Shown: positions 2,704 to 57,895 of the stretch, one piece after another | How the letters are laid out: each line of letters starts with the position of its first letter | How positions within the stretch are numbered: the stretch's first letter is position 1 | Assembly: GCA_031289315.1 (NCBI GenBank) | Contig: JAITPR010000054.1 | Span: forward strand, 1 to 64,000 | DNA from: Clostridiaceae bacterium | GTDB lineage: Bacteria; Bacillota; Clostridia; Christensenellales; CAG-917 | Length of the DNA stretch: 64,000 nt | Direction: 5' to 3' | Program-made: the position numbers and the translations under genes | Notes under the pieces: model-generated | The model's database searches: none | Told to the model about the DNA's origin: nothing | What the model saw: only the letters and a program-made list of their open reading frames with translations

Positions 2704-3484
2704 TTCCATCCTCCAAATTCGTATCCGTGTAATCATTTTCGGAGGCGGTGCTTGTGTGCACGCTGTCCTTTGAAGTGATTTTGAGGAACAGCTCCTCTAA
2801 TGAGGAATCCAATCCTCGCTCCCTAAGCTCCGTGAAGGTACAGGCGGCTATGAGGCTTCCTCCGTCGATTATGCCTATGCGGTCACAAACCTTTTCCACG
2901 ACGTCCAACACGTGCGAGCTGAAAAACACCGTGTTGCCGGCGCTTGCGTACGACCGCATGAATTCCTTTAACTGAAACGCCGACTGCGGGTCTAAGCCCG
3001 TGAGCGGTTCGTCTAAAATAAGTAGCTTCGGGTCGTGGATTATGGCGCCTATCACGCTTATTTTTTGTTTCATTCCGTGCGAATAGGTTCTGATTTGCGC
3101 CTTCGCGACGTCCTTCATGCCGAACATAGTAAGATATTCGTCAAGCTTTTTTACTCTGTCCGCCGTCGGCACGCCGTAGACGTCGCACATGAAGGTGACA
3201 AATTCTAAGCCGGTTAGCTTGTCGTAAATTATGTGGGAGTCCGACACGTAGCCGATACTTTTTTTAGCGGCGACGGAGTCTCTTTTGACGTCCTTGCCGC
3301 AAACGCTTATTTCGCCGCGCTCAAAGTTGAGTATGCCGGTAATACACTTTATCGTCGTGGATTTCCCCGCGCCGTTCGGTCCTATAAACCCGAAAATCTC
3401 CCCTGCGGCGACCTCTAAATTTAAGTCGTTCACCGCAATCTTGTTGCCGGGAAATATTTTTGTTAAATTCCTTATTGAAAGCAT
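2690..3484 (-). CDS. ABC transporter ATP-binding protein
   Basis: A 264-residue nucleotide-binding subunit. Walker A is GPNGAGKST near residue 35, the signature region reads YSHGMKQK instead of the textbook LSGGQ, Walker B is LLILDEP, the D-loop GLDP follows, and the switch histidine is in FFSSHVLD. This is the CcmA/DrrA-like layout of ATPases that pair with ABC-2 permeases. AAGGAG lies a few bases upstream of the ATG. Its end overlaps the permease start by 14 nt, which supports a shared operon. The C-terminal 25 residues after the ATPase domain are acidic and Ser/Thr-rich and match nothing I know. Confidence 0.92.
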   Translation of the reverse strand: MLSIRNLTKIFPGNKIAVNDLNLEVAAGEIFGFIGPNGAGKSTTIKCITGILNFERGEISVCGKDVKRDSVAAKKSIGYVSDSHIIYDKLTGLEFVTFMCDVYGVPTADRVKKLDEYLTMFGMKDVAKAQIRTYSHGMKQKISVIGAIIHDPKLLILDEPLTGLDPQSAFQLKEFMRSYASAGNTVFFSSHVLDVVEKVCDRIGIIDGGSLIAACTFTELRERGLDSSLEELFLKITSKDSVHTSTASENDYTDTNLEDGNERI

Positions 3485-3606
3485 GCTTACTCTCCTTACC
3501 CTTAGTGTTGTCCTTTAAATATGCGCCGACCGGACGACCCGCGCCCCTCCGACCTCAAAATATTACGCCGACTAGACGACCGTGAAGACCTCGGTTACTT
3601 CCGTAT

Positions 3607-4902: not shown

Positions 4903-5046
4903 GAGTATATCATATCACCTTAGCGCCATTTTGACAATAGACTTAATATAAAATATAAGCTTAAATTTAATCGTTAATAATTTGCCGATTATTGGCTTAA
5001 ATAAATGCGATGGCTGCCCTACCATTAAAAAAGAAGCCAATATAAA

Positions 5047-7176
5047 CTAGTTTTTCTTAGATTTATTAGAATAGTATATTTTGCTTGTACGTTTTATTTC
5101 GTCATAACATATGTCCGCATGACTAACGAAAGAACCGTCACCGCTAGGTTTTTTCGGGTCTGAAGCTACCCATACTTCCATTTTATCGTTTATAAGTAAT
5201 CCTATGTCAGCCGGCAAAAACTTAGTTTCGCTATATGTCTTGTTAAAAATATCTGCAATCTCTATTCGGCAATTATTATTGAATTCTTCGCCAAATTCTG
5301 ATATAATGCAAATTTGTGGCTTCAATGTTTCAACAAGCTTCGCAACGCCCAATCTACCTAGATGATTTTTATAATAAATCTTTTCCATTGGATCATCCTT
5401 TTGGTCATTTCTTTGGTCATCCATAAAACTAGCATTATAGTTTATTTCCGATTCTTTAAACCCTCCTATATTTGCCACAAGTGCTATGGTTTTATCTTTA
5501 TAATGCTCTTCCAATAAGTTGGCATAGTATTTCTTCATTTCTTTGGAAAATCCTGTATCGCCCGTATATATAAGGACAGAACTGCCATATTCAAAGCAAA
5601 AACCTAAACAAGCTGCATCAGACATTAAATCGTTGTGTTTTGCCTTAATTAAGCGTACGTTCATATCATCTATTTTAAACTCTTTGTAAAACTCGTCATC
5701 TACACATACTATTTTATAGTTGCTAGCTTTGTTCAGATTAAAGAAACTTGAATACTTCTTAAATGTTCCGTATGATAAATAAAAAATAATTTCTTTTCTT
5801 CTGTTTTTAAAGCGATTGCCGACTTCTTCACGAACCTTAGAATCACCCTCCGGGTTGTCTTTTCTTGTTTTATTCAAGGTTTTTAAGACTTCATCTATAA
5901 TGCTTCCGTCTTTGTACTCATCGTAAGAGCCGAGCAATTCTTCATTATATACATGTAAAAGTGTTAATAAAGAGTCAAGGTCGGCAGTATGGTCATTGTG
6001 GGCATGCGTTATCATTATGTAATCAATATCTATAAAGTTAAACCCCGCCGCAATGAAATTCTCAATAAAATTAAAACCGGGGTCAATTACAATCCCCTTG
6101 TCTTTATATTTTATAAAGTAACCACCGCCCTTGCTTGCATAGTAACCGCTACCGACAATAGGCGTGAAAGAATTCCATCGGCGTAAAACCATAAATTCAA
6201 AATCGCTTTTATCACTTCTATCACTTTTATCTTTTTTATGACTATAAAAGTCCTTCATTTTTCTTTTATTTGCGACGATCTTACTTCCGCATATTTTTTC
6301 GGTTTCATCTATAATTGTTCGTAGCTTATCTGGATTTTCTATTGCCGCTTTTTGAGCGGCAATTTTTTCTTCGACTTGCTTGATAAGTTCGTCTATCCTA
6401 TCACCTTTATACTTTTCGCTTTTAGCATAATATTTCCGTGCTTTTTCATAATCGGCAAGTGCCTTAGGATATTTCTTTTGAGAGTAATAGACCATTCCGC
6501 GATAACGATATGCCTTGGCATAGGTGTAATCATTTTTAACCGCCGAAGTATAATCAGCTATCGCCTTTTTATAATCGTCTAAAATATAATGAACATAGCC
6601 GCGATTTGTGTATGCACGAAGACTAAGAAGTTCCGTATTGCTATTAATAATTGCTAGCCCATAGTTTTTAATTGCGTTGTCATATTCCTTTCTAAATTCT
6701 CCATAAAATTTATTTTTAGCAGAAGCTTGGTCAACAAAAATAAGTCCACGAAGATTATATGCACGTGCATATTTGGAATTATATTTAATTGCTTCATCGC
6801 ATTCTTTCATAGCTGTATCGTATTCTCTTTTATCATAATGGACAACAGCCTTGCCCAAATATGCTGCGGCGCAAAGTTCATGCGCTTCATCGATTTTGTC
6901 TGATTTTGATTTATCTAATTCGGCAATCTTTTCATCGCAAAGTTTATGAGCTTCATCAATTTTGTCTGATTCCGATTTACCTAATTCCGAAAGCGCGCAT
7001 ATTTTTATGTAAAAACATTCCGGGTGTTTTGGCTCCAATCTCAATCCGTTTTCACAATCTTCGAGTGCTTTGCCGTACTCGTTTTGAGTGTAGTATAGTT
7101 CGGCTCTTTGAGAATACAAATCGGCTGTTGCATCACTCTTAATTTTAGTTGTTAAGTCTTTGATAGTTTTACTCAT
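5047..7176 (-). CDS. TPR repeat - metallo-beta-lactamase fold fusion protein
   Basis: A 709-residue protein. Residues 1-280 are TPR helices (for example AYNLRGLIFVDQA and AYRYRGMVYYSQKKYPKALAD), with a short internal duplication around SDKIDEAH. After a charged linker, residues 335-640 form a metallo-beta-lactamase fold: the metal motif HAHNDH near 388-396, a downstream histidine in KAKHNDLMSD, the bridging aspartate in YTGDTG, and a late histidine in NHLGRLG. There is no signal peptide, so it should be cytoplasmic. The start ATG overlaps the stop of the preceding radical SAM gene (ATGA), which fixes it as the last gene of that operon. It may hydrolyse a peptide or ester bond, or bind metal, in the same pathway; this is inference. 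I do not recognise a named family with this architecture. Confidence 0.8.
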   Translation of the reverse strand: MSKTIKDLTTKIKSDATADLYSQRAELYYTQNEYGKALEDCENGLRLEPKHPECFYIKICALSELGKSESDKIDEAHKLCDEKIAELDKSKSDKIDEAHELCAAAYLGKAVVHYDKREYDTAMKECDEAIKYNSKYARAYNLRGLIFVDQASAKNKFYGEFRKEYDNAIKNYGLAIINSNTELLSLRAYTNRGYVHYILDDYKKAIADYTSAVKNDYTYAKAYRYRGMVYYSQKKYPKALADYEKARKYYAKSEKYKGDRIDELIKQVEEKIAAQKAAIENPDKLRTIIDETEKICGSKIVANKRKMKDFYSHKKDKSDRSDKSDFEFMVLRRWNSFTPIVGSGYYASKGGGYFIKYKDKGIVIDPGFNFIENFIAAGFNFIDIDYIMITHAHNDHTADLDSLLTLLHVYNEELLGSYDEYKDGSIIDEVLKTLNKTRKDNPEGDSKVREEVGNRFKNRRKEIIFYLSYGTFKKYSSFFNLNKASNYKIVCVDDEFYKEFKIDDMNVRLIKAKHNDLMSDAACLGFCFEYGSSVLIYTGDTGFSKEMKKYYANLLEEHYKDKTIALVANIGGFKESEINYNASFMDDQRNDQKDDPMEKIYYKNHLGRLGVAKLVETLKPQICIISEFGEEFNNNCRIEIADIFNKTYSETKFLPADIGLLINDKMEVWVASDPKKPSGDGSFVSHADICYDEIKRTSKIYYSNKSKKN

Positions 7177-8201
7177 ATGCTTTCTTTTTCACCCCAAAAT
7201 AAGCATCCCATCGATATGTCGGAAAAATTGTCGTTGAATATTCTACAACAAAACGGATCCGGCGATAAAAACTCACCATTAAATTTGTAAGCCCGCACTC
7301 GGCACCCGCGGTTGCAAACGATTTTTGAATGACAATTATTACACTCAAAAATATCATTTGACACATAATTCTGAAGAATTTTTGAGTTTTCACTGTTAAC
7401 ATAATCTTGTATCGTTTCATGTAATGAACGAGTTGTTATATTTCCCATACAAAATAGACTATGTTCTCGGGCATCACCGCAAGGATACACATTACCATCA
7501 TATTTTATTGCTAATGTATGTGGAAAAATACGGCAACGGTGGGTTTTATCTGCAAAGGTTGTTTGCTTCTTATAAAGAAGATTTATCGTTTTTTCGTAAT
7601 CTTTAACAACCGCTGAATTATATTCAGTTTGCCGCTTTGCCGCACTTGTTAAAGCCACGGGCAAAATACTGTAGCTAGTAAAGTACGGCATGTTAATAAC
7701 ATCAATAACATCAGTATAATTGTGCTCATCTAATGTCATTTTTGCCGTTATAGGAATGCCTAGTTTTGACAGTCCCTTTACATTGTGGATTGTAGCATCA
7801 AAAGAGCCCTCACCGCGTCGCAAATCATGATTGTATTTCATGCCGTCAATAGAAACTTGTATTGACAAAAGATTTATATCTTTGCGCTTTTCAAAAAATA
7901 ATAGGTTCAAATCCGTCGCATTTGTTAATACCCTAGTAGGAATTTTTTTAGCTAAGCAGTATTCTAATAATCCATATGCGAAAGGGTGCGTAAAAAATTC
8001 GCCACCACTAAATGAAAGCGCTTGCGTATAGTTTGCAATAGCAAAATCAACAATTTCAATTAGTTTTGATTCAGATAGAACATATTTGTTTTTATCGGCA
8101 CCACGAAAACAGTGCGTACAATTTGAGTTGCACGCACTTGTTACCAGTACTTTAATCTGGTCAAAATTAAAATGTTCCGGCATCAATGAAATTGCTGACA
8201 A
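7173..8201 (-). CDS. Radical SAM/SPASM protein A of the peptide locus
   Basis: A 342-residue radical SAM enzyme. The AdoMet [4Fe-4S] motif is CNSNCTHC (C24, C28, C31), the GGE motif is FSGGEFF, and the C-terminal SPASM region has further cysteines in YPCGDAREHSLFC, CNNCHSKIVCNRGC and DPFCC for auxiliary clusters. SPASM enzymes commonly modify ribosomal peptides, making thioether, C-C or other crosslinks. The start is a TTG at 8201 preceded by GGAAGG, and it lies inside the 3' end of the small cysteine-rich peptide gene (35-nt overlap). Its own stop overlaps the TPR-MBL start. That close linkage makes the 68-residue peptide the best substrate candidate, although this is inferred. Confidence 0.88.
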   Translation of the reverse strand: MSAISLMPEHFNFDQIKVLVTSACNSNCTHCFRGADKNKYVLSESKLIEIVDFAIANYTQALSFSGGEFFTHPFAYGLLEYCLAKKIPTRVLTNATDLNLLFFEKRKDINLLSIQVSIDGMKYNHDLRRGEGSFDATIHNVKGLSKLGIPITAKMTLDEHNYTDVIDVINMPYFTSYSILPVALTSAAKRQTEYNSAVVKDYEKTINLLYKKQTTFADKTHRCRIFPHTLAIKYDGNVYPCGDAREHSLFCMGNITTRSLHETIQDYVNSENSKILQNYVSNDIFECNNCHSKIVCNRGCRVRAYKFNGEFLSPDPFCCRIFNDNFSDISMGCLFWGEKESI

Positions 8202-8373
8202 CTATTGATCCTTCCTTTTTGCTACAGCATCCACCTATTGGACTTGGAGCAGAGCAACAGTAGTGTGCGTCGACCTTATCACCAACCTTGTCTAAGGCTG
8301 TTAAAAGTTTTTCCTCGAATAGTACATGCTGTTCTTCAGACCTTTTCAAGTCATTGTTTATCCTATTTTTCAT
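8167..8373 (-). CDS. Small cysteine-rich peptide, candidate RiPP precursor
   Basis: A 68-residue peptide. The N-terminal 35 residues are charged and helix-prone (MKNRINNDLKRSEEQ...), as in leader peptides. The C-terminal half carries YCCSAPSPIGGCCSKK, a CC-X8-CC arrangement, followed by a hydrophobic tail ending in DAGTF. The ATG has an ideal AGGAGG 7 nt upstream and its own perfect sigma-70 promoter, so it is very likely expressed, and more strongly than the flanking genes. It sits between three radical SAM/SPASM genes. I do not recognise the family: the spacing fits neither the six-cysteine SCIFF pattern nor a known sactipeptide I can name. No double-glycine protease site is obvious, although GG precedes the second CC. 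Confidence 0.72.
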   Translation of the reverse strand: MKNRINNDLKRSEEQHVLFEEKLLTALDKVGDKVDAHYCCSAPSPIGGCCSKKEGSIVVSNFIDAGTF

Positions 8374-8394
8374 TATAAAACCTCCTATGTATTT

Positions 8395-8423
8395 ATTATA
8401 GCGGATAATGTTGAATATGTCAA
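8395..8423 (-). promoter_or_regulatory. Consensus sigma-70/SigA promoter of the peptide gene
   Basis: Read on the minus strand: TTGACA (8418-8423), a 17-bp spacer, then TATAAT (8395-8400). Both boxes match the consensus at every position. The predicted transcript starts only a few bases before the AGGAGG of the peptide gene. Confidence 0.9.
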
Positions 8424-8432
8424 ACTCTTTGT

Positions 8433-8499
8433 GTGTGGAAAATTAGAGATGACAAAAGATTTTATTATATAGCAAGTCGTCACCCTAACTGCCCACACC
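8433..8499. repeat. MITE-like palindromic repeat, diverged copy
   Basis: Opens with GTGTGG, holds AGCAAGTCGTCACC, and closes with CCCACACC, giving inverted ends. It is the most diverged of the full-length copies. Its edge lies about 10 bp upstream of the -35 box of the peptide promoter. Confidence 0.7.
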
Positions 8500-8595
8500 A
8501 AACTCTTTAATGCCCTTGAAAATTGCAACTTATCTTGAAATTTCCACACCTCTGCATAACCGTCCACAGCTTGCGACTTGCAAAAAATTATTGCC

Positions 8596-9969
8596 TTACG
8601 TCGTAGTTTTTCCGCTTTTGTCATCTGCTTCTGCATAATGTTCCGTTAGAATTTTAGATATTGCGGCTATTTTAAATATAAATTTGTTACACGGTGAATT
8701 TGTCTCTGAAATGTTCTTTCGTTGTTCAAGGCATCCCCCTTGGCAAATAGGCAAAAATTTGCACGCAAAACACTCTTGCTGCAACTCAATGCTCATAAAG
8801 TCGTTATATACTTCATTTTTTACAACACCTTTTGAAACACTGCCTGTTGCATTTGCTCCGTTTAGTTGACTCAAATTGCACCTATATATCGCCCCGTCTG
8901 CCCCGATGACCAAGGCATCCTTTGATTTAGCTAAACAAAACTTAGTTAATAACTTAGGAACCAAACTATCGACCGGTGGCACAACGCCATTCTTTATCAA
9001 CAACGAGTTAGTAATATAAGTCATTTCGTTATATTCCAATGTCGGAAAATAATCATTGACGTTATCTTCACTTCGTAGAGGTGATACGAAAAAGAAAAAC
9101 AACTCGTTCTCCAAGAAATGCTTGATGTCATGAAGTATTATGCTAAGGTCATTAATATTGTTTTTGTCAACATTAAATCGACAATGAACATTAATGCCTT
9201 TCGCCAACAACTTTTCAATATGTTGAACAGTTCTTTTATAACCGTTAAAAGTTTTATCTAAATATTTTTTTCTACTATTATGCTCTTGTTCCGCGCCGTC
9301 AAATGTGATGTTAATCTTTCTAATATGCCAATTAGTAACGGCTGAATCTAAAATTTCATCGTTAAACAAAACTAAGTTAGTTGTGATAACCGAAGTGTAG
9401 TTAATTTCCGGAACCTTTAGCTTAAATTCTTTACACATCATTGTTATTAACTTGTGCTTTAAAAGAGGTTCTCCGCCGTACCAGTTAAAAGAAACATTCT
9501 TATAGCCATGTGAGGCTTTTGTGATAAATTCTATAGTTTTCTCTGCAGTTGCTAGAGTCATATCAATTCGCTGATTTTTCTGCGCTATACAATAACGACA
9601 TCTCGCATTACATTCGGTCGTCGGCAAAATCACAACTTTCATTGTTTCAGAAGCGGTATTTTGCATAGTCACTCTGTGTCTACTTAAAATTGCTGCCTCG
9701 TCAACGTCTTTTCCTACAAAAAAACCATTTTCTTTAAGCAGAGAATATATTTGACTATCCTCCGAAAACTTCTTATTAACAATTTTTTGGTATTCATTTT
9801 TGCTTAACATCACGATTGCATCTGAAATAAAATTATAAAAAATGACTTTATTCTCAGCAACTTCTTGACAATGTGTAAACCAAGAAAGCTTCGTTTCTTT
9901 TGGTTCAGTAGCGCCAAAATACTCCGGAAATTTTTCCGCTAAATGGCTGTGTTCGCGAATAATTTTCAT
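8596..9969 (-). CDS. Radical SAM/SPASM peptide maturase-like protein B
   Basis: A 457-residue enzyme with an N-terminal domain of about 110 residues before the radical SAM core, the size and place where peptide maturases often carry a peptide-binding domain. The cluster motif is CNARCRYC (C120, C124, C127), the GGE motif is WYGGEPL, and the SPASM region includes FCLAKSKDALVIGADGAIY, a cysteine in YRCNLSQ, and CFACKFLPICQGGC. I place the start at the ATG at 9969 (MKIIREHS), 9 nt after GAGG and 11 nt after the stop of the previous gene; the frame further upstream only overlaps that gene. It ends before the peptide promoter. It resembles SPASM maturases of RiPP clusters; the bond it makes is unknown. 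Confidence 0.85.
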   Translation of the reverse strand: MKIIREHSHLAEKFPEYFGATEPKETKLSWFTHCQEVAENKVIFYNFISDAIVMLSKNEYQKIVNKKFSEDSQIYSLLKENGFFVGKDVDEAAILSRHRVTMQNTASETMKVVILPTTECNARCRYCIAQKNQRIDMTLATAEKTIEFITKASHGYKNVSFNWYGGEPLLKHKLITMMCKEFKLKVPEINYTSVITTNLVLFNDEILDSAVTNWHIRKINITFDGAEQEHNSRKKYLDKTFNGYKRTVQHIEKLLAKGINVHCRFNVDKNNINDLSIILHDIKHFLENELFFFFVSPLRSEDNVNDYFPTLEYNEMTYITNSLLIKNGVVPPVDSLVPKLLTKFCLAKSKDALVIGADGAIYRCNLSQLNGANATGSVSKGVVKNEVYNDFMSIELQQECFACKFLPICQGGCLEQRKNISETNSPCNKFIFKIAAISKILTEHYAEADDKSGKTTT

Positions 9970-9980
9970 GTCTACAAACC

Positions 9981-11036
9981 TCAACCATTGCGACCTGATG
10001 AAATCGGGCATGTGCAATCCTCATGTATACACATTGGGTCATGTGAAAACAAATCTTTAGTTTGTGCCAACGAGGCTACCCTACATCCCAAACAAGACGC
10101 TTGATATTTACACTTTGACTCTTTCATCGTATGTACTTCTTGAAGTTGCCGTATTAGTGCGGAACCTTCAAGAATATTGGCTAAAGAGCGTTCAAACACA
10201 TTTCCAATAATAGTATCTTGATACAATAGCAACGGACAAGGACTTACATTGCCCGATGGGTCAATTCCAATCCATCTCGTGCCAGCCTTGCAAGCATAAC
10301 CATTTATCAATTTTTCTTCATTGCCTGTATTCGGCAGTTTTTGATAGTAATCAAAAACTATAGTGCCATAAAGCGGATCATGAACATTAATTTTTAAGTC
10401 CTTGTTTGCGAGTTGAATTGCGAATATTTTATTTAAGACCTTGAAATTTTCTTCCGGAGTAAGTCCCACATCATTTATGCCGCCGCGACCGATTTTCATC
10501 AATCGCTTAAATGAAAAAGATTTCACACCATACGAACTAGCAACATTGATGAGATTTTCTATTATCTGATAATTCTGCTTCAAAATTGTCATTTCAATGC
10601 CGAGTGAAAAATTGAATTTTTTTACTCTTGTGAGTAAATTCAAAATAATTTCATCAACTTTCGGGTGCCGATATATTTCTATTGATTTTTCGTTGGATAA
10701 CGACTGTAAGCTAATTACAATTCCATCAACGCCCGCCGTTGAGAGCCTTTCCAACATTTCATTGGATAAAAGCGTTCCGTTTGAGCAAAGAAATACTTCG
10801 TCACCTATTTTCTTTGCTATATCCAAATACTTGAAGAATTGTTTATCTAAAAGAGGTTCTCCTCCCGACAAAAATATGCGATTGAACCTAACGCTATTTA
10901 AGCTATTAAACAACGCTTCAAACTCATTGTCACTAAGCGGAACTTTAGATTCAATGCCTGAACTAGGATAACAATGGACGCAACTCAAATTGCATTCATT
11001 GTTTATTATCCACGATAATTTTTTTATAGGTTTCAT
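9981..11036 (-). CDS. Radical SAM/SPASM protein C of the peptide locus
   Basis: A 351-residue protein with CNLSCVHC (C15, C19, C22) almost at the N-terminus, FLSGGEPLLD, and a SPASM tail: CKAGTRWIGIDPSGNVSPC, then CKYQASCLGC and a last group CIHEDCTC. The layout is like PqqE/AlbA-type peptide-modifying enzymes and heme-related radical SAM proteins; the neighbours favour peptide modification. The Shine-Dalgarno (AAGGA) is rather far from the ATG, so expression may rely on coupling with the upstream gene that ends 26 nt before. It is the second gene of the operon. Confidence 0.85.
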   Translation of the reverse strand: MKPIKKLSWIINNECNLSCVHCYPSSGIESKVPLSDNEFEALFNSLNSVRFNRIFLSGGEPLLDKQFFKYLDIAKKIGDEVFLCSNGTLLSNEMLERLSTAGVDGIVISLQSLSNEKSIEIYRHPKVDEIILNLLTRVKKFNFSLGIEMTILKQNYQIIENLINVASSYGVKSFSFKRLMKIGRGGINDVGLTPEENFKVLNKIFAIQLANKDLKINVHDPLYGTIVFDYYQKLPNTGNEEKLINGYACKAGTRWIGIDPSGNVSPCPLLLYQDTIIGNVFERSLANILEGSALIRQLQEVHTMKESKCKYQASCLGCRVASLAQTKDLFSHDPMCIHEDCTCPISSGRNG

Positions 11037-11062
11037 TATTAATTGTTAGTTCCTTATTATAT

Positions 11063-11521
11063 TTATTTCCATTGCTCTATCAATTCACATTCGCGTTCAA
11101 TAGTTTCCCTATCCGCATCTGAAACATGAAAATAAGAATAACGATATGGCATCTTCTCTCCATTATATTCAATTAGAATATCTAATTTTTGAGGCCAACA
11201 GAATTTCCTAAAATCTCTTTTAATTTTGGTCAGTTTTTCGTAGGCTTCTATAAGAGAAATAGGCTCATTATAATCTAAATACCATATCTCAAAAGACTCC
11301 GCATTTTTACCGAAGATTTGGTTGAAAAATGCTCTATATAGTGCAGACACAGTCGTCGATGAGTTCTTGTAAATAGCCACAGAAATGTCTGAAAGACGTG
11401 TCTTTTCCCTTGTACAAACGACAGAAAAACCTCTCTCAGCCAAATAACTTTCCAATACATCACGACAAAATAGCAAAACCTCGGGTTTTACTAATATCCA
11501 ACAAGCATTTTTTGTGATCAT
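11063..11521 (-). CDS. Small NDP-kinase-like protein
   Basis: A 152-residue protein, first gene of the island operon, with a strong AAAGGAAGG before the ATG. I see a distant match to nucleoside diphosphate kinases: the opening CWILVKPEVL resembles the kinase strand with its conserved KP, and FHVSDADRETIEREC near the C-terminus resembles the active-site histidine segment (H-G-S-D-...-E-I). The length also fits an NDP kinase monomer. The middle is too diverged to be sure, and the usual RNxxHGSD asparagine is not seen. It could bind or phosphorylate a nucleotide, or be a fold relative with a new role such as peptide recognition. The match is by eye only. Confidence 0.5.
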   Translation of the reverse strand: MITKNACWILVKPEVLLFCRDVLESYLAERGFSVVCTREKTRLSDISVAIYKNSSTTVSALYRAFFNQIFGKNAESFEIWYLDYNEPISLIEAYEKLTKIKRDFRKFCWPQKLDILIEYNGEKMPYRYSYFHVSDADRETIERECELIEQWK

Positions 11522-31410: not shown

Positions 31411-31855
31411 ATATCGCGCAATGCTCCTTTCCGCCGCTTATCGACGGATTTTTATTGCGGTATACGCTTTTAAAAGCGTATACTTTCCCCAGTATCTTAA
31501 ATTATATAATATATAACAAATAATTACAAGCATAATAAAAAGTTTTCGATAAATAAACTATTACAGTCAAATGTAAAGTAAATTCCATAGTGGCAGCCGG
31601 TTTGGCAAGCTTTAAAACAATGTTGTTTCTACGACGGCTTAATGCAAAAACATTTGTGTTTCCACGTTTTGAATTCGGTATTTCCGCAAATAAAAAGCCG
31701 CACAACCCTAAAAAATACTAGGCGCGCGGCATTGAAAAATAGCTTTATTTAGTTAGGACAATCCACTGTGACGACTTGCTAAGCAAGAAAATATTTTGTC
31801 ACCGCGAATTGTCCACACCCTTTATTTTTAGCGTAAACGGCGTAGGATTATTTAC
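31411..31855. other. Intergenic region with MITE-like copy
   Basis: About 445 bases between the MBG protein and a hicB remnant. A MITE-like copy lies at 31756-31819. The rest is AT-rich and contains only short, unconvincing frames. Confidence 0.6.
31756..31819 (-). repeat. MITE-like palindromic repeat, inverted copy
   Basis: On the minus strand: GGTGTGGACAATTCGCGGTG, then AAAATATTTTCTTGCTTAGC and AAGTCGTCAC, ending in GGATTGTCC. It lies in the opposite orientation to the copies at 45.3 and 51.8 kb. Confidence 0.85.
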
Positions 31856-45100: not shown

Positions 45101-45343
45101 TTCCGCCTCCGCCGCAAACGCTACCGCCCACCGCCGTATTTTTGTCTTGCATACGCCGTGCCGCCGCGCGTCTGTCGCAAGTGCTTTTTATCCGCATCCG
45201 CCGTACACTGTTAACCGCTCACGACAAACGGCATAGCCCTCCGCCGCAAAAATTTTGACGCTGCATGTCGTCTTTTTACATGTTTATTCTGCTGTCAGAA
45301 GGTAAAAATATGTACAAGTTAAACTAAAACAATGTTTTAAAGT

Positions 45344-45412
45344 GTGTGGATGATTTGCGGTGATAAAATATTTTATTGCGTAGCAAGTCGTCATCACGGA
45401 TTGTCCACACCC
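45344..45412 (+). repeat. MITE-like palindromic repeat, left flank of radical SAM operon
   Basis: GTGTGGATGATTTGCGGTGA, AAAATATTTTATTGCGTAGC, AAGTCGTCATCACGG and ATTGTCCACACC follow one another. It has the same orientation as the copy at 51818-51887 on the other side of the operon. Confidence 0.85.
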
Positions 45413-45679: not shown

Positions 45680-46122
45680 TTATTTACCGTCCCTCAAATC
45701 TGTCAATAACCGGATAAGCTCTCCTTCCGTCAGCACGGTTTCCCGCATATTCCGTTTACCTACTGAGTGGCTCAACGGCTCGTCGCCGCTATCCTTTAAC
45801 GCCTTTGCAAAAACCTCATTTTTAGCAAGCTCACCGTATGCCCTCTTTAGCAACTCCTGATATTCGGCGCTCTCCCGGCGATACCGCTTGCCGCGCCACC
45901 GTAAAATTTGCTTTTTTGCCACTTCTTAGCTTGCGCGTTGCGTTTGGCCAGCTTTCCCGGCAATGCGCACACCTCAATCTGCCGGCGAAGGCTGCTATAT
46001 TTCAAGCTTTGGAGAAACCCCTCCATACTGCGGCACCTTATGCCGTCAATTTCAAACCCGTTCGGATAAAAATTAGACAGCACATTCGCCGGATATTCGC
46101 CTTTACTGTAAATGTCTATCAT
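45680..46122 (-). pseudogene. NADAR-family gene with a frameshift
   Basis: Two frames together give one NADAR protein of about 147 residues. The first (46122 down to about 45910) has the typical opening YSKGEYPANVLSNFYPNGF and SMEGFLQSLKY. The second (from about 45922) has QILRWRGKRYRRESAEYQ and the closing LSHSVGKRNMRETVLT. They join across a run of six As near 45910-45916 and need a -1 shift. NADAR proteins remove ADP-ribose-type modifications or act on N-glycosidic bonds. The gene starts 4 nt after the short PHP gene. The shift could be a sequencing error, a recent mutation or programmed slippage. Confidence 0.75.
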
Positions 46123-46126
46123 AGGC

Positions 46127-46606
46127 TCACCCGCACGTTGACCACGAATCGTAATCTATTTTCATATCGTTTTCAGTCATGAAATACTTTACCTCAATCG
46201 GTCTTTCGAATCGCGCCATGAATGCGGCTTTTATTTTATCCGCATCGTCGGTAGGCTTGCAAGATATCTCCGCATAAAATTTAGAAACGTCGTCCGCTTT
46301 TTTAACCGTATAGTTGCTTTCAAGCTCAAAGTCGTCCTCATCTCCGGCGCTAAATGAATGTATAAAAGACTCGTCAAGCCCGATTTCGCCGTCGGCAAAG
46401 CAACACGACAGTTCTATGCCGTTGATATGCTCTAACTCGGCTTCTTTGGCAAGCGTAGCGGCTTCGATATTACCCGCCACCTTGTCGTGGTCGGTGATTG
46501 CAAAATACCTTACACCAGCGGCTTTAAGCAACGCTACAACCTCGGCAGGTGTTTTTCCCCCGTCACTGTGCGTAGTATGTATATGAAAATTGACCTTTGA
46601 TTTCAT
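46127..46606 (-). CDS. Short PHP-domain protein with an unrecognised C-terminus
   Basis: A 159-residue protein. The N-terminal half is the start of a PHP phosphoesterase: HIHTTHSDGGKTPAEVV, FAITDHDKVAG and INGIELSCCF carry the first metal ligands. The usual later PHP motifs are missing; instead a charged segment of 85 residues ends in KIDYDSWSTCG. So either it is a truncated phosphoesterase or a small protein with a new second domain. AAAGGAGG precedes the ATG. It lies 33 nt after the radical SAM gene and 4 nt before the NADAR gene, so it is in the same operon. Confidence 0.65.
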   Translation of the reverse strand: MKSKVNFHIHTTHSDGGKTPAEVVALLKAAGVRYFAITDHDKVAGNIEAATLAKEAELEHINGIELSCCFADGEIGLDESFIHSFSAGDEDDFELESNYTVKKADDVSKFYAEISCKPTDDADKIKAAFMARFERPIEVKYFMTENDMKIDYDSWSTCG

Positions 46607-46639: not shown

Positions 46640-47983
46640 TCATACGAACGGTTTGTAGGACAAAGACAGTCCCTCTTTCATAATGAACATTGGATAATGG
46701 ATTTTATCTTTCGGAGGCATCAATTGAACAAAACCCTCGTTCACTCCGGACTCTTTCATGAATTTGGACACGGCATTAATCGTTTCTTCCATCCAACGGG
46801 CAAGGATGCCTTTAAAATATTGACAGCGCAAATCGTCCCACTCAAAAAGTGAATCATTGGTAATAAACAGATAACGCTGCACACTACCGCGGCATACTGT
46901 TTTAGCGAAGCAATCCTGACATTGTTCTTTGTAATTATCAAGGTAGCGTTTTGAAAGCAAATCATTTCTTTCCTTATCAAAAACGATATGACCGTCTACA
47001 AGATTTCCAATATGTAATTCCGGAAAATCCTGATGTGAAGAGTGAATAACGGCGTTAGATACTGTAACTTTTCCGTCGGTAAGAATATTAAAAAAATTCA
47101 TTTTATCATTTGGTCCGCCAGCGCGAAGGTGATCCAACGGCAACGCCTTTACATGCACACCTTGTTTCTCCGCGGAAGGAATAATGTCGAAGATTAGGTT
47201 GACAAAATCGTCGACAGCCGGTGCCTCATGCCTTAAAGCGATTGCACGTCCGTTAAATGTGTGCAAATGCTCAATTAAAACCCTATTGGTAAACTTCTTT
47301 GCCGTTTGTATTAAACAATCCTTCAACTCCTCAACATTGCGTCGTGTAACCGTAGCGCGAAGAGATACTCTTTTTGAAATTTGCGATATAGTATCCATGG
47401 AACTAAGCATACCGGCAAGCGAATCGTCCTTTGAAACTAGCGGCTTTTGATGATTTTCATTATTCAGACCGTCGAAGGAAATTTGAAATACCAGATTTTT
47501 GAAGGAGAGCAACTCTTGTAAAAGGCTGTTATTCATAACACCGTTTGAAATCAGCAATATTTTTACATGAGGGAACTTCTGTGCTTCGCGTAGCATTGCA
47601 AGCAGAGCGTTGGGATTTTGCGTGGGTTCTCCGCCCCAAGCATATATGACAAGTTCATTATCGGTTTGTTCGGCAAGCGCGCGCACTGCCGCTTGCGTAC
47701 GCTCGACAGTCATCACTCCAACGCCCTTGATGGGTTTCACATAGCAATATGGGCATTCCATATTACATTTAGTAGTAAGCGTAATCGCGGAAAATGAAGG
47801 GCTAAAAGTGAAATCCGGCTCCGGCTTAACATCAATCTTTTTCAATCTTTCGGTTGCCGTAGCCTCAAAACCGGCTTGAGATGAAAAAACGGCAACCTCT
47901 TTTTGGGTCACATTGTAAAGATAAATAGTACCGTTCATTTCCATACCTAGCCATCCGTTGTATACAAAAAAATTATCTTTCAT
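46640..47983 (-). CDS. Radical SAM/SPASM protein
   Basis: A 447-residue enzyme with an N-terminal domain of 65 residues before the core. The cluster motif is CNMECPYC (C73, C77, C80), the GGE-like motif is WGGEPTQN, and SPASM cysteines are in CQDCFAKTVC with a later DLRCQYF. Its N-terminal YLYNVTQKEVAVF region looks like those of peptide-modifying SPASM enzymes. A GGAGG lies 9 nt before the ATG, and only 21 nt separate it from the stop of the giant fusion gene, so both are cotranscribed. No precursor-like peptide was found nearby, so the substrate is open. Confidence 0.85.
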   Translation of the reverse strand: MKDNFFVYNGWLGMEMNGTIYLYNVTQKEVAVFSSQAGFEATATERLKKIDVKPEPDFTFSPSFSAITLTTKCNMECPYCYVKPIKGVGVMTVERTQAAVRALAEQTDNELVIYAWGGEPTQNPNALLAMLREAQKFPHVKILLISNGVMNNSLLQELLSFKNLVFQISFDGLNNENHQKPLVSKDDSLAGMLSSMDTISQISKRVSLRATVTRRNVEELKDCLIQTAKKFTNRVLIEHLHTFNGRAIALRHEAPAVDDFVNLIFDIIPSAEKQGVHVKALPLDHLRAGGPNDKMNFFNILTDGKVTVSNAVIHSSHQDFPELHIGNLVDGHIVFDKERNDLLSKRYLDNYKEQCQDCFAKTVCRGSVQRYLFITNDSLFEWDDLRCQYFKGILARWMEETINAVSKFMKESGVNEGFVQLMPPKDKIHYPMFIMKEGLSLSYKPFV

Positions 47984-48004: not shown

Positions 48005-51000
48005 TTAGCTTTGCAGATACAATTGCTCAAACCGTTCCGCAATCGCGTCCCACTTATAATAATTGGCTCTTTCACGGGCGTTTTCACCCATTATTTTTAC
48101 ATCGTAAGGATGCTCCAACATCCACTGCAACGCATCGGCTATTGATTTAACATTTGGTTCTACAATAAATCCGTAATCATTCCTACCAATTTGATTTGTT
48201 TGCAACACATCGCGGGCTCCCGGAGTTAATGTTGTGATTACGGCTTTTCCCCGCGCCATGAGTTCGGGAATGACCATTCCAAAAGGCTCATAAAGAGAAA
48301 GTACAACGCCAAACCCGGCTTTATCAATTAATCGCAATTTTTCAAGTCCGATATATCCGGTTGACGAAATCATTACTTTTATATTTGAATATTCATCCGC
48401 GCTTTTAGCTAAATCTTCGGCATATTTCCGCCTTGCTTCAATGGTGTTATCGGTATTTCCAAAGATAATAAGTCTAAATGAAGAACATACCTCTTTACTC
48501 ATTTTTGCTGAAAGAAACTTGGTCGCTTCAATTAGTAGGTCAAATCCTTTTTCGGGTGAAATTCGACCGTAAGAAACAATGGTTTTCTGCTCTGAAAAGC
48601 TAGTCTGTGGTAGCGGCGTGAAATGCTCGTCCCCTATTCCGTTTGGAACGCATGTTAGCATACCGGCATAATCCGGATATACTTCCATTAAGTCCTCTAT
48701 CATCCCGTTTGACGGAACGGTTATCACTGAATTGGATTTGATAGCTAACCGTTCTAATTCGCGAAGCTTCTTAACCATAACGGTGTCGTTTATCAGTTTT
48801 TTATTTCTGCTTGAAAGAAGCATGTGGAATGTAGAGATAACCCTGTATTTCTTTTTTTTCAGTTCGGCGGCACGCTTCGGTGTTTCGATAAACCCGTGCA
48901 AGTGTACAACACAATCTTCGGGGTCAAAATGCTGAAGAATTTTTTCGACAAAGGCATCGCCGAACATCGTTCTGAATTTATGAACGTTCAAATCGTCGGC
49001 AAAGAGCGTACTAATATATTCCTCCGTGAATTTGATTTTGACAACTCTAAGCATGCCGTTTTCATAAAGATACTCACCCGGCTTTTCATCTTTGACGCAA
49101 GGCGAAATCCAGTAAACAATATTTCCGCGTTTTATTTGCGCTTTGCAAAGATTGTAAACCGCCCAACCTTGTCCGCCAAGTAGATGCGCGGGGTCATGAT
49201 AGGAAACATGGATTATTTTGAACTTTACCGTTTCGGTTTTATGAATTGTCGGAAGTTCGAGTGCAATTTGTGCATAATAATACTCTTTTGATTTCAAACC
49301 GTAAAACACGGATGCAGGACGGCAGCCATTGCGACATTGCAACGGCGGGTTGACAAAAAGACTTCTTCGCGCAGAGATTAAATCGTCAAACGGCGAATCA
49401 ACGTCACCTACATATGTAGTCTTAAATGTTGAACACATGGCAAAGCAAGGATAAATTTTTCTGTCTGCGCCGATAAGGGAATAGTGTGCGACCGTCCAGC
49501 ATTTCTCGGCAGGCGACACTTTTAAAGTTGCATTAATACTGTCAATAACATTGGTGTTATTCTGCAAAAACCGAAATAAATCGGGTTTTGATTTTTCATA
49601 TTTCCGCAATCTTTTTTTCAAGAGTTCAAGTGTTGTGTTACTCAATGCAGAAATCGCATACGGCGTATTTTGTTGGTTATCATCCGCCAAAGGAAATAGC
49701 ATAAATGTACAGCTTTTGCCATCAATGCCGCATGCTGAAACTGCGTTCCGTATTTGATAGAGTTTTTCAGCCGAATCAATACCGGTTAGAATATTATGCT
49801 CATCGAAAACTTGTGTCACTCGGATAAGTGATACTGGACTTGTGCTAAGATACGTACAAATGTTTTCCCAAACGGTATCAAACAACTCCTGCCCCTTATA
49901 TTTTTTGTAATTCTCCTTGTTGCCTTCATCAAGCGATATGCTTACTTCATCAATTTCAGAAAGCCATTCGCCGTCCGGTATATATGTGCCGTTGGTAATC
50001 AAACGAAGTCTAACACCGGGCAGTTTTTTTCTAAGAAAGAGCACGACATCGTTAAAATCATTCTCCCCATCGTGATAAAGAGTAGGTTCGCCTCCTCCGG
50101 CTATTAATATTTCCATGGGTGACAATTCAACAACCCGTTTCAAGTCGGAGAAAAATAAAAAATGTTCTTTGTTTTTAGTTTTATAAGTACACCATGAACA
50201 ATTCAAGTTGCAGTTATTTGTAAGATGCAGTTCAAGCAATGTAAGCCGTTCAGGTTTAAATAATCCGGATTTCAAAATCTGTTCGCAAGCGCTTTTGGCA
50301 ATAGCTACACAATCATCGGGATAAAGAGTATGGCAATGAAAATATTTTATCACACGGTCAAAATAATTGCGATAAAACGATTGTATATCCGCAAATATTC
50401 CTACCTTGAAAAGTTCAAAGAAACTCCTATGAATTGCCAGTCTAATAAAAGCCGGATTATTAACACAGTATTGCAATGTGTCATCGAGGCATTTCACAAT
50501 TTGGTCCGTTAACCATATGTTTTTCTCCTCTTCCGCCCTTTGAACGCTTTCATCCGGAGTTTCAAAGGAAGAGAACGCCAACATAACCTCTAATTCATCT
50601 ATCATGGTATGGGGGTGTGTTTTCCGCCTGTCGATTATTTTCCCTTTGAGTTTTTGTCTTATAATTGTCGGTATATCGCTTCGTAGGGCGATTGTTCTCC
50701 ATAAAGAGAGATTATCCGAATCGACAATCACGGATAATTCGCCAATATCGGTTGTGACTCTGGCAAAAATACCTTGATTTTGAGGGTAATCTTTAATGAG
50801 CCGTGCGTGAATTTTTCGACACAAACGTTGTATATTCTTTGAGTGTAGGTCGTATTGTGAAGCGATTTTTTCTTTTGTCATTTGCAAACTTTCAGTGATT
50901 TTGATAAGGTTCTTACCAAAAAAGATATTGCTACCCATAAGACAGAGTTCTTTTACCGTCAAAAAAAAGTCAAGCGCGGCATTCAATTCTTTTATATCGT

Positions 51001-51670
51001 CATCTGATAAAATGCCTTTCTCAACCAAAATATTAATATCGGTATCCGCTAAAAATCTGTTTCCGGCGTATAGCGCCGCAATCATAAAAATAAATTGTAT
51101 CCATCGTATACCGCCCGTAAAATATTTTATGTCGCCGCGACTAATTTCTAACGGTAGTTCGTTTGTCGGATGATATTTTTTCAATAGCCGTGAAAAGAAC
51201 GATGACGCCATAAATTCAAGATGTAAGTCATTGCCGGCAAGATTAGAAACCATTACATCTCTACTCGTCAAGGACAACACATCGGGTGCATTTAATACGG
51301 TATTTTTAAACAGTCTTTTGTTACCGCCTATAAATCTAACACTGAGCAAATCCATGGGATTTACTTTGACGCGCTCCCACGCCTTAAATGCAACAATCCA
51401 AGGTTTTCCGGAGAATTCAATAAACAACTCTCTCTGAAGAGGTATCAGATCATCTTTTGTAAGGCTACCGTCATGTATCAATGTAAAATCAGTGTCCGAG
51501 TTCCCCGACAAGAAGCGTCCCCCACAACTCCCATATGTTAGTATTGCAACACGATCGCTTAAGCCTGTTTTATTAAGAATGTTTTCCGTGCGTACAACAA
51601 GTGAGTAAAAATTGTGTTCGGCTATTTTTCTTCCCATCTTTGCTTGTATAAGCTCATAAGGCGTTTGCAA
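48005..51670 (-). CDS. Nucleotidyltransferase - radical SAM - GT4 glycosyltransferase fusion
   Basis: A 1221-residue cytoplasmic protein with three parts. Residues about 40-470: a nucleotidyltransferase-like domain with YGSCGGRFLSGNSDTDFTLI (GS and D-x-D at about 47-62), followed by a helical region like DUF294/GlnD-type enzymes. Residues about 480-770: a radical SAM domain with CNLNCSWC (C487, C491, C494), IAGGGEPTLYHDG and a SPASM-like tail (CWTVAHYSLIGADRKIYPC, CRNGC). Residues about 815-1221: a GT4 transferase with GGQGWAVYNLCKA, SYGRISPEKGFDLLIEA and EPFGMVIPELMARGKAVI. I start at TTG 51670, eight bases after GGAGG; an ATG at 51733 is upstream without a ribosome site. I know no family with this order. 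It may act on a carrier that is nucleotidylated, radically modified and glycosylated; this is inference. Confidence 0.82.
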   Translation of the reverse strand: MQTPYELIQAKMGRKIAEHNFYSLVVRTENILNKTGLSDRVAILTYGSCGGRFLSGNSDTDFTLIHDGSLTKDDLIPLQRELFIEFSGKPWIVAFKAWERVKVNPMDLLSVRFIGGNKRLFKNTVLNAPDVLSLTSRDVMVSNLAGNDLHLEFMASSFFSRLLKKYHPTNELPLEISRGDIKYFTGGIRWIQFIFMIAALYAGNRFLADTDINILVEKGILSDDDIKELNAALDFFLTVKELCLMGSNIFFGKNLIKITESLQMTKEKIASQYDLHSKNIQRLCRKIHARLIKDYPQNQGIFARVTTDIGELSVIVDSDNLSLWRTIALRSDIPTIIRQKLKGKIIDRRKTHPHTMIDELEVMLAFSSFETPDESVQRAEEEKNIWLTDQIVKCLDDTLQYCVNNPAFIRLAIHRSFFELFKVGIFADIQSFYRNYFDRVIKYFHCHTLYPDDCVAIAKSACEQILKSGLFKPERLTLLELHLTNNCNLNCSWCTYKTKNKEHFLFFSDLKRVVELSPMEILIAGGGEPTLYHDGENDFNDVVLFLRKKLPGVRLRLITNGTYIPDGEWLSEIDEVSISLDEGNKENYKKYKGQELFDTVWENICTYLSTSPVSLIRVTQVFDEHNILTGIDSAEKLYQIRNAVSACGIDGKSCTFMLFPLADDNQQNTPYAISALSNTTLELLKKRLRKYEKSKPDLFRFLQNNTNVIDSINATLKVSPAEKCWTVAHYSLIGADRKIYPCFAMCSTFKTTYVGDVDSPFDDLISARRSLFVNPPLQCRNGCRPASVFYGLKSKEYYYAQIALELPTIHKTETVKFKIIHVSYHDPAHLLGGQGWAVYNLCKAQIKRGNIVYWISPCVKDEKPGEYLYENGMLRVVKIKFTEEYISTLFADDLNVHKFRTMFGDAFVEKILQHFDPEDCVVHLHGFIETPKRAAELKKKKYRVISTFHMLLSSRNKKLINDTVMVKKLRELERLAIKSNSVITVPSNGMIEDLMEVYPDYAGMLTCVPNGIGDEHFTPLPQTSFSEQKTIVSYGRISPEKGFDLLIEATKFLSAKMSKEVCSSFRLIIFGNTDNTIEARRKYAEDLAKSADEYSNIKVMISSTGYIGLEKLRLIDKAGFGVVLSLYEPFGMVIPELMARGKAVITTLTPGARDVLQTNQIGRNDYGFIVEPNVKSIADALQWMLEHPYDVKIMGENARERANYYKWDAIAERFEQLYLQS

Positions 51671-51776
51671 CTCTTTACCCTCCCGAAGATTATTTTGACT
51701 TTGACATCCTATCGTCTTTCCTTGACAGAACATCGCGAGCTACGGCTCAAACACCTTCCGATCGAGTGTTTGAAAT

Positions 51777-51800
51777 CTATAGATTCATTTTAGACTTCAT
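51777..51800 (-). pseudogene. Broken copy of the PHP gene start
   Basis: GGAGGCTCAAA, then an ATG and the codons MKSKMNL before a stop. The intact short PHP gene at 46606 has GGAGGCTTAAA and MKSKVNF. Over 23 bases there are only three differences, so this looks like the leftover 5' end of the same or a sister gene. Confidence 0.45.
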
Positions 51801-51817: not shown

Positions 51818-51887
51818 GGGTGTGGACAATTGCGGTGATAAAATATTTTCTTGCCTAGCAAGTCGTCACCGCGGATTGCCCATACCC
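51818..51887 (+). repeat. MITE-like palindromic repeat, right flank of radical SAM operon
   Basis: GGGTGTGGACAATTGCGGTG, AAAATATTTTCTTGCCTAGC, AAGTCGTCACCGCGG and ATTGCCCATACCC. Close to the consensus and in the same orientation as the copy at 45.3 kb. Confidence 0.85.
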
Positions 51888-51903: not shown

Positions 51904-52812
51904 TCAATCGCGCAGTGCCTTGAAATAGTCCTTGTTTTGTGTCAAATCGCCTTTCAGAATTTCCTTAAAGCGTTTAAGCCGCACGGTATCGCCGTACTTA
52001 TTATATAGGTTTTCTATAACAACTATAAGACCCGTATAGTCAATCGTTCCCGAAGCCTTACGTTCCAAATAAAGCGCGTTATCTAGACACCTTGTGAAGT
52101 AGTCGTTTGCCTGCTTAAAATTGCCCATTTCGTCATAGATAAAGCCTAGGTTATTTTGTATATTCACAATCTGATATTTGTAAGCGGGGTCGACTCCGGC
52201 AAGATAGTGATGCAACTCTATGGCTTTTTCATAATAGTCAATCGCTTTGCCGTATTCCTTCAGTTTACGGTAAACCACGGCAAGATTAGATTTAATTTTT
52301 GCGTTCAGTATGGATTCCTCATAGGCAATCCGCCCCTTTGTAGCTTCGTCTATTAACTCGTCGGCGGCTTCGTACTCACGGCGCGCCAAAGCATCGTCAA
52401 ATTTAGCTTCAAGCACCTTAGTCGCAAAATCGAAGTGCTTTTCCGCAAGTATTAAGGCATATTTTTTGTCCATTTTATATAATGTTTTATATTGTGTAAC
52501 GGCGTTTGAGTCCATTCTCAACGCCTCCTCCGTATTTTCCCACACAATCCGTAGCATCGCCGCCAGTGTTTCGTAAATTGTCGCAACGCGCCGTATGACA
52601 GCCTCATTCGGAATGATGTAGGCTTCTATCAATTCAATCTCACGCTGAAAAAGCTCAACGGCAAAATCATATTCCTTCTTCCCCATAAAATGTCTTGAAA
52701 GGTCTTCATACCCTTGCCTAAGCGTGATAACATTTTCTGCGGTGGCTTTTGCCTTTAATCTCTCCTCATATTTCGATAAATCTTTAATTAAAGCTTTGTC
52801 CTGTGCATCCAT
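51904..52812 (-). CDS. TPR-repeat protein
   Basis: A 302-residue soluble helical protein of tetratricopeptide type; clear repeats are YGKAIDYYEKAIELHHYLAG and NLGFIYDEMGNFKQANDYF. No catalytic domain, signal peptide or membrane segment. It probably acts as a scaffold. It lies 40 nt after the PHP gene on the same strand and upstream of the radical SAM operon, from which a MITE-like copy separates it. A link to that operon is possible but unproven; note that the other radical SAM locus also has a TPR protein. Confidence 0.8.
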   Translation of the reverse strand: MDAQDKALIKDLSKYEERLKAKATAENVITLRQGYEDLSRHFMGKKEYDFAVELFQREIELIEAYIIPNEAVIRRVATIYETLAAMLRIVWENTEEALRMDSNAVTQYKTLYKMDKKYALILAEKHFDFATKVLEAKFDDALARREYEAADELIDEATKGRIAYEESILNAKIKSNLAVVYRKLKEYGKAIDYYEKAIELHHYLAGVDPAYKYQIVNIQNNLGFIYDEMGNFKQANDYFTRCLDNALYLERKASGTIDYTGLIVVIENLYNKYGDTVRLKRFKEILKGDLTQNKDYFKALRD

Positions 52813-56575: not shown

Positions 56576-57895
56576 ATGGATAAATCAACGCTTTTTTTAT
56601 ACTCTTTCAAAAGCGGCTTAAAAAACTGCCGCCTTTGCCCTAACGAGTGCGGCGCGGACAGAACCGTTTGCGCGGGAGCTTGCCGCGTACGGCTTCCGCA
56701 TATCGCAAAATATATGCTGCATTTCGGCGAAGAACCCGTAATAAGCGGTACGCGCGGAAGCGGAACGGTATTTTTTTCCGGCTGTACCATGGACTGCGTG
56801 TTCTGCCAAAACCACTTAATTTCAAGGTCGTCTTTAGGAGATGACGCGCGCGGCTCCGAAAATTCCGCGAACAATCTGCTAGCGGACGGTAAACAATACG
56901 CTACCTCCGCCACCTCCGTTCCCGAAAAAATACAAATCAATTTTGAGGAAGTCCCCTCCGTAGAAAAAAATATCTCAACCAAAGGGGAAGTCCCCTCCAC
57001 CGAAAAAAATATATCAACCGGCGGGAAAGCCCCTCTAGCAGAAGAAAAAACCTCACGCGGCACGGAATCCGGTTTCCAAAATTGCACTAAGATTGCCGGA
57101 GAGCTTACGCCGGAAGCGCTTGCCGCCGTGTTTTTCGAGCTTAAAAACGCCGGCGCGCACAACATAAATTTGGTGTCCGCCACGCCGGCAATACCGTTAA
57201 TCGCTGAAGCCTTGATAAAATACCCACCCGGAATTCCCGTGATATGGAATTCAAGCGGCTACGAAAAAGTCGAAGCCTTGCGCATGCTTGAGGGACTGGT
57301 ACAGGTTTATCTCCCTGATTTAAAATATGTTTCTCAAGCGGCTTCTATAGCTTTATCTAAGCATAATGACTACTTTAAACATGCGTTTGCGGCAATTTCG
57401 GAAATGCTGCGACAACAGCCGGAAACGGTGATAGAAGACGGTACCGTACGGCGCGGCGTAATTGTGCGGCACCTTATCGTCCCCGGTTTTTTAAAGGAAA
57501 GCGCGGAGGTCGTAAAAATATTTGCGGAAAATTTTAAGGACAGCGCATGGTTCTCTTTAATGGCGCAGTACACGCCCCCCGCCGAATTGGGCTTGCCGCC
57601 GGCAGTGGGCGCGCACGCCTCGGATATAAACCGACGCTTGAAGCCCATCGAATATCACTATGCCCTAAGACTGCTTGAACGCAACGGCATTGAAAACGGC
57701 TTCGTTCAGGAGCTCTCCGCCTCCGGCACGGAGCTTATTCCCGATTTTGAAACTCCATCCGCACTCGCTCCGAATGCGAAACTTATTGCGGATTTTAATG
57801 CACCCGCTCCGAATAATAAGCTGATCCCCGATTTTGAAACTTCCTCCGCACTCGCTACCGGTACGGAAAAATCTCATAAAAAACCGCGAAAATGA
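56576..57895 (+). CDS. PflX-like radical SAM protein with repetitive insert
   Basis: A 439-residue protein. The N-terminal cysteines (CRLCPNECGADR, CAGACRV) and the radical SAM motif CTMDCVFC match the PflX/COG1313 group, which resembles pyruvate formate-lyase activases; members are usually about 300 residues. Here, after QNHLIS, about 85 residues are inserted, including a tandem repeat of 16 residues (EVPSVEKNIST, EVPSTEKNIST), before the core resumes at LTPEALAAVFFELKNAGAHN. The C-terminus also has an extra repeated tail (KLIPDFET, KLIADFNA). Both additions look disordered. The substrate is unknown. It has its own promoter, divergent from the membrane-protein genes. Confidence 0.8.
   Translation: MDKSTLFLYSFKSGLKNCRLCPNECGADRTVCAGACRVRLPHIAKYMLHFGEEPVISGTRGSGTVFFSGCTMDCVFCQNHLISRSSLGDDARGSENSANNLLADGKQYATSATSVPEKIQINFEEVPSVEKNISTKGEVPSTEKNISTGGKAPLAEEKTSRGTESGFQNCTKIAGELTPEALAAVFFELKNAGAHNINLVSATPAIPLIAEALIKYPPGIPVIWNSSGYEKVEALRMLEGLVQVYLPDLKYVSQAASIALSKHNDYFKHAFAAISEMLRQQPETVIEDGTVRRGVIVRHLIVPGFLKESAEVVKIFAENFKDSAWFSLMAQYTPPAELGLPPAVGAHASDINRRLKPIEYHYALRLLERNGIENGFVQELSASGTELIPDFETPSALAPNAKLIADFNAPAPNNKLIPDFETSSALATGTEKSHKKPRK

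Follow-up and report, generated by a model that had tools for sequence, protein, structure and literature searches.

The gene at 48005..51670 (reverse strand) of the window, by which we mean the whole stretch of 64,000 nucleotides that was analysed, joins three enzyme domains, a nucleotidyltransferase (NTase), a radical SAM domain and a GT4 glycosyltransferase, in a single uninterrupted frame, as the initial annotation had proposed. This is borne out by Pfam matches, all above the gathering score and in the order GlnD_UR_UTase, Radical_SAM, Glyco_transf_4, Glycos_transf_1, and by a frame (48005-51733, reverse strand) that is stop-free inside over its 1242 codons from the first ATG. The reading that we tentatively prefer, while holding it short of probable, is that the fusion is one multifunctional tailoring enzyme which would work with a partner radical SAM protein on one acceptor. 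The parts are of known kinds and their combination appears to be new, with a rare family elsewhere being possible. We found no described protein in which a single chain combines nucleotidyl transfer with radical SAM chemistry and glycosyl transfer, and the unit of two genes is of a size that permits direct expression and testing.

Frame, start and layout

The most credible start of the fusion is the TTG at 51670, which is preceded by GGGAGGGTAAAGAG and has a Shine-Dalgarno sequence, GGGAGG, 8 nt ahead of it. It gives a protein of 1221 aa (1242 aa from the ATG at 51733) and is the end of the gene that had originally been given. The only other Shine-Dalgarno-like starts in the frame are two at codons 1176-1177, near the C-terminus. 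Counted from the TTG, the motifs lie where they had been placed, the GS beginning at residue 47 and CNLNCSWC at 487; all other residue numbers here count from the ATG at 51733. Signature motifs are kept in all the domains, the third carboxylate of the NTase being represented by candidates only, and the catalytic activity of all three enzyme classes is predicted from these motifs. AlphaFold, run without homologs, returned a pLDDT of 36 for the N-terminus and 34 for the radical SAM part, both too low to be of use.

The N-terminal nucleotidyltransferase part

The NTase motif GSCGGRFLSGNSDTD (51488..51532, reverse strand; residues 68-82) has the form GS-x9-SDTD, and the catalytic GS...SDxD of the GlnD/GlnE type is present; GS-x9-[ST]DxD arises in 0.14% of shuffles of the fusion protein. 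GlnE, TUTase and Polbeta models match weakly at this place (E 0.004 for GlnE, 0.027 for TUTase), and no Pfam model matches the NTase core above its cut-off. Candidates for the third carboxylate lie near residue 125 (NPMDLLSVR), there being no homologs to align. A GlnD_UR_UTase-like helical segment (50951..51133, reverse strand; residues 201-261) stands where GlnD has its own. It matches PF08335 above the gathering score (22.9 bits in the whole protein and 26.2 bits in the isolated N-terminus, with a cut-off of 21), the match spanning only profile positions 27-82 of 141. The region that follows, of about 230 residues (262-490; 50264..50950, reverse strand), has no database match and is probably helical, helices being seen in a low-confidence model only.

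The likeness to GlnD (PII uridylyltransferase) and GlnE (glutamine synthetase adenylyltransferase) consists of the NTase motif followed by the UR_UTase helical segment, and the N-terminal part of the fusion is about as long as one GlnE half. In contrast to these enzymes, the fusion has no matched ACT or HD domain and no second NTase half, and its NTase is joined to radical SAM and GT4 domains; the similarity is weak, the GlnD/GlnE equivalog cut-offs not being reached (13-15 bits versus 487-519). PF08335 was found in one of 391 genomes of the class, which is the present one, and control matches were obtained in Escherichia coli, Caulobacter and Corynebacterium. This restriction to a single genome argues that the NTase of the fusion is not the GlnD or GlnE of the host.

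The radical SAM core and cysteine tail

The radical SAM core (49859..50224, reverse strand; residues 504-625) matches PF04055 at 3.9e-14, with 53.6 bits against a Pfam cut-off of 29.5. CNLNCSWC is encoded at 50189-50212 (reverse strand), and both CxxxCxxC and GGGEPT align to solved radical SAM enzymes; shuffles of the fusion protein contain CxxxCxxC in 0.7% of cases and GGEPT in 0%. Behind the core lies a cysteine-rich, SPASM/twitch-like tail (49322..49501, reverse strand) with C745, C763, C767, C800 and C804, a probable auxiliary cluster site. The earlier description of this tail as SPASM-like stands as regards the five cysteines, but the fusion has no match to the Pfam SPASM domain (PF13186) and models of the twitch/SPASM type match the tail weakly, at best with 44.7 of 380 bits. 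Radical SAM/SPASM and twitch enzymes of NCBIfam (TIGR04317, HxsC, MoaA, NF033640) share with it CxxxCxxC, the GGEP motif and a cysteine-rich C-terminal tail, whereas all scores of the fusion fall far below the family cut-offs and its domain is placed mid-chain.

The GT4 glycosyltransferase part

The C-terminal part of the fusion consists of an acceptor-side half (48635..49177, reverse strand; residues 853-1033; PF13439, 4.6e-11) and a donor-side half (48068..48598, reverse strand; residues 1046-1222; PF00534, 1.2e-22). The claim of a GT4 domain with an E-x7-E motif is confirmed, in that both GT-B halves exceed their Pfam cut-offs and an alignment to Pyrococcus abyssi GlgA (3fro) agrees, with E-x7-E and the lysine of PEKG in register. 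The motif, EPFGMVIPE, is encoded at 48263-48289 (reverse strand), and EPFG-x4-E occurs in 0.08% of shuffles of the protein. Two Rossmann halves, E-x7-E and a donor-site lysine are common to the fusion and to GT4 enzymes such as P. abyssi GlgA, GlgA_Coryne and HpsP; the fusion differs from them in being about 25% identical to its GT4 relatives, with no family assignment, and in carrying the GT4 as one part of a longer chain. The glyco_rSAM_CFB model TIGR04157 describes a GT4-type family, linked to radical SAM genes by the name of the model. The fusion is a non-member (50.6 of 400 bits), and the glycosyltransferases of that family are, to judge from this name, presumably separate proteins rather than parts of one chain.

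The partner gene and its surroundings

The neighbouring radical SAM gene noted at the outset is present 21 nt downstream of the fusion stop on the same strand (46640..47983, reverse strand; 447 aa), with its own Shine-Dalgarno sequence, behind GGAGGGCAAGTAAAATG. Its nearest relatives are PapB/SPASM peptide maturases (7.9e-22 for the PapB type) and phrog_1802 (4e-28), and its scores stay far below the NCBIfam cut-offs of the known RiPP maturase families (best 77.9 of 340 bits). In its tail it retains a CxxC-x5-C...C pattern that resembles a set of ligands for one auxiliary cluster. Plasmid matches to this gene in Legionella, Salmonella, Methylocystis and Edwardsiella were set aside as ordinary radical SAM loci.

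Upstream of the fusion, on the same strand, lies a gene for a TPR protein (51904..52812, reverse strand; 302 aa), the association of which with the fusion is uncertain; apart from one generic TPR match, it was not found in 39 relatives. Relatives of a PHP gene, also upstream, occur in 34 of 39 related genomes, the best matches being about 26-35% identical. A mini-frame, MKSKMNL, at 51800 was considered as a relic of a PHP gene start and rejected as not significant (13 of 300 shuffles were as good). Downstream, the product of 46127..46606 (reverse strand; 159 aa) has a PHP-domain N-terminus and an 84-residue foreign tail ending in WSTCG, and is possibly that of a broken gene. It is followed by a frameshift-split Phage_30_3 (PF08010) gene at 45680-46122 (reverse strand), the halves of which match the model in register from different frames. 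Because these adjacent genes look broken, the segment around the fusion may be decaying. Further downstream is the gene order surE-rluB-dacA-ytfJ, common to relatives; with this order kept and the genes of the segment foreign-looking, the segment looks like an acquired accessory stretch beside a conserved operon. No precursor peptide was recognised adjoining the fusion, nor any small Cys- or repeat-rich peptide gene next door, and among the genes near the locus we recognised none for the synthesis or export of a small molecule.

A 71-nt imperfect palindrome, GGGTGTGGACAATCC...GAATTGTCCACACCC, occurs at 51818-51887 and 45334-45412 (both reverse strand) and at 31756-31821 (forward strand), the two direct copies bracketing the fusion segment. 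The genome contains at least 40 scored copies (200-250 candidates at a first look), and 59 relatives contain none; Rfam gave no match. In the flanks of 30 copies there are shared direct repeats of up to 8-9 nt, with a mean of 6.1 compared with 3.8 in shuffled flanks, 0 of 1000 being as high. On these grounds the element is a lineage-specific MITE.

One gene or a chimera

Assembly chimerism had been named as a way in which the fusion might prove illusory, and composition speaks against it: GC3 of the four fusion segments is 0.376, 0.366, 0.365 and 0.405. Since GC3 is nearly even across the joints and no Shine-Dalgarno-like start is found at the inner domain boundaries, chimeric assembly is unlikely. 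Most of the flanking host genes have GC3 of 0.52-0.63, the exceptions being the TPR gene (0.46), the PHP fragment (0.49) and an island at 5-11 kb. This contrast with the 0.37-0.41 found throughout the fusion suggests that it is one gene with one origin, probably foreign. The fusion unit sits in a low-GC segment, the genes of which have no counterpart in related genomes, and the locus was probably acquired horizontally.

Relatives and earlier descriptions

Genomes were searched with the whole protein (200 relatives), with its N-terminal part (398 of the phylum and 396 of the order) and with an NTase plus radical SAM query (391 of the class); the draws overlap and comprise about 1,200 genomes of the same phylum altogether. 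Phage (50,697) and plasmid (72,556) records were searched by tblastn, IMG/VR with three kinds of pattern and GTDB r220 with two pattern scans. Pattern scans of either database depend on short peptides being matched exactly, and most relatives that have diverged would escape them. Neither a full-length nor an NTase-domain homolog was found in any of these, matches to the fusion being limited to generic radical SAM or GT4 similarity. GTDB genomes and IMG/VR, scanned with peptides of the one sequence, gave no relatives, a degenerate NTase DNA motif had 0 matches in each of the two, and a motif-weighted alignment pattern, the rows of which were artificially varied only to guide the choice of pattern, found nothing in IMG/VR.

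Several candidates were rejected. Weak N-terminal matches in the same order were judged to be chance, one in the NTase region belonging to a sugar isomerase/endonuclease-like protein; five long-frame glycosyltransferase matches in relatives are enzymes of the ordinary kind, in part fused to other domains; and a gut-phage match reads as bacterial sequence. The expectation that homologs would keep all three domains therefore failed at the sensitivity reached, and the fusion is so far a singleton. As there is no homolog, selection maintaining the domain order is unsupported. The assertion that no family with this order had been described agrees with full-text literature searches, which yielded no description of an NTase-radical SAM-GT4 order.

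Possible functions

GlnD/GlnE NTases transfer a nucleoside monophosphate to a hydroxyl group, which in most cases belongs to a protein; peptides or cofactors are often the substrates of radical SAM enzymes that have an extra cluster; and GT4 enzymes transfer a sugar from a nucleotide-sugar with retention. By analogy with these families, the NTase of the fusion would take the nucleoside monophosphate of an NTP and attach it to a hydroxyl, the radical SAM domain would cleave SAM on a [4Fe-4S] cluster to give a 5'-deoxyadenosyl radical that would modify an unactivated C-H position, and the GT4 domain would act as a retaining transferase that draws its sugar from a nucleotide-sugar. A further radical step would come from the second radical SAM gene, and all steps would take place on one putative acceptor, either a peptide or protein or a small molecule. 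The covalent joining of the domains suggests that these steps are consecutive or coupled. Fusions of such a kind usually mark consecutive steps of a pathway, and on this ground the gene points to a new glycosylated, radical-modified product in anaerobic bacteria. We count in favour of the multifunctional tailoring enzyme that unfused radical SAM and sugar-transferase genes are neighbours in one human-gut phage and in the Campylobacter phages CP220 and F379; against it, the fusion has no homolog, its neighbourhood shows no recognised precursor peptide and several broken-looking genes, and the sequence supports the NTase fold weakly and offers only candidates for the third acidic residue. The fuller proposal, in which one substrate is nucleotidylated, radically modified and glycosylated by a trifunctional enzyme that has a radical SAM partner of its own and makes a new class of product, we consider doubtful.

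Alternatively, one domain, most likely the divergent NTase, might be non-catalytic and serve in binding or regulation, leaving the radical SAM and GT4 pair as the working enzyme. This is a serious if rather unlikely rival, to which the weak model matches (GlnE E 0.004, TUTase 0.027), the third carboxylate, for which there are candidates only, and the unmatched stretch of about 230 residues after the UR segment all lend weight; it has to contend with the retention of both GS and SDTD, a motif seen in 0.14% of shuffles, and with a UR segment that exceeds the Pfam cut-off and is placed as in GlnD. It has also been considered that a ribosomal peptide is what the fusion and its partner modify and glycosylate, either one from another locus or the 159-aa product of 46127-46606. 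This reading partly coincides with the tailoring enzyme proposed above and adds a name for the acceptor. The partner's best matches, PapB-type peptide maturases (7.9e-22) and phrog_1802 (4e-28), point this way, as does a second cluster in the window, in which three radical SAM genes accompany a likely precursor. However, no NCBIfam score comes near its family cut-off (77.9 of 340 bits), a small gene for a Cys- or repeat-rich peptide is missing next door, and we know of no GlnD-type NTase among RiPP tailoring enzymes. We regard a peptide acceptor of this kind as unlikely.

We think it very improbable that the three domains make a modified base or nucleotide, or add a sugar to one, in nucleic-acid modification or phage conflict. 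The context of the fusion is foreign-looking, Campylobacter phages pair radical SAM genes with sugar transferases, and in a gut phage a glycosyltransferase-like gene directly precedes a radical SAM gene with 25% identity to that of the fusion over 158 residues; but any two radical SAM proteins would show about as much identity, PADLOC gives generic viperin matches only, and no defence gene cluster is nearby. Just as improbable is an artefact, be it a chimeric assembly or a non-functional accidental fusion. The draft state of the genome (63 contigs), the lack of a homolog and the decayed neighbours would accord with one, but for 3.7 kb the frame runs without a stop, its composition and codon-position bias stay uniform, and its domains are full-length with intact motifs.

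Other loci in phages and in the window

In Campylobacter phage CP220 (positions 1254-9837 of record L112) five genes are annotated as radical SAM, and the same run holds an amidinotransferase and two nucleotide-diphospho-sugar transferase genes. CP220 and F379 resemble the fusion in having radical SAM genes beside nucleotide-diphospho-sugar transferases and differ from it in that the phage genes are separate, have another GT fold and include no annotated NTase. The glycosyltransferase-like gene of the human-gut phage and the radical SAM gene directly behind it (5005-6885 of record L115) resemble phage DNA-hypermodification pairs.

A second low-GC island of the window (5047-11521, reverse strand; GC 0.35) holds three radical SAM genes at 7173-8201, 8596-10017 and 9981-11036 (all reverse strand), and also codes for a 152-aa protein without known identity and a TPR-metallo-beta-lactamase protein. 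A likely RiPP precursor of 68 aa, ..HYCCSAPSPIGGCCSKKEG.., with a clear ribosome site, is encoded there at 8167-8373 (reverse strand). Elsewhere, the radical SAM gene at 56576-57895 (forward strand) contains an in-frame 39-nt repeat pair at 56947-57024, after CxxxCxxC, and another repeat pair near its end, at 57732-57856.
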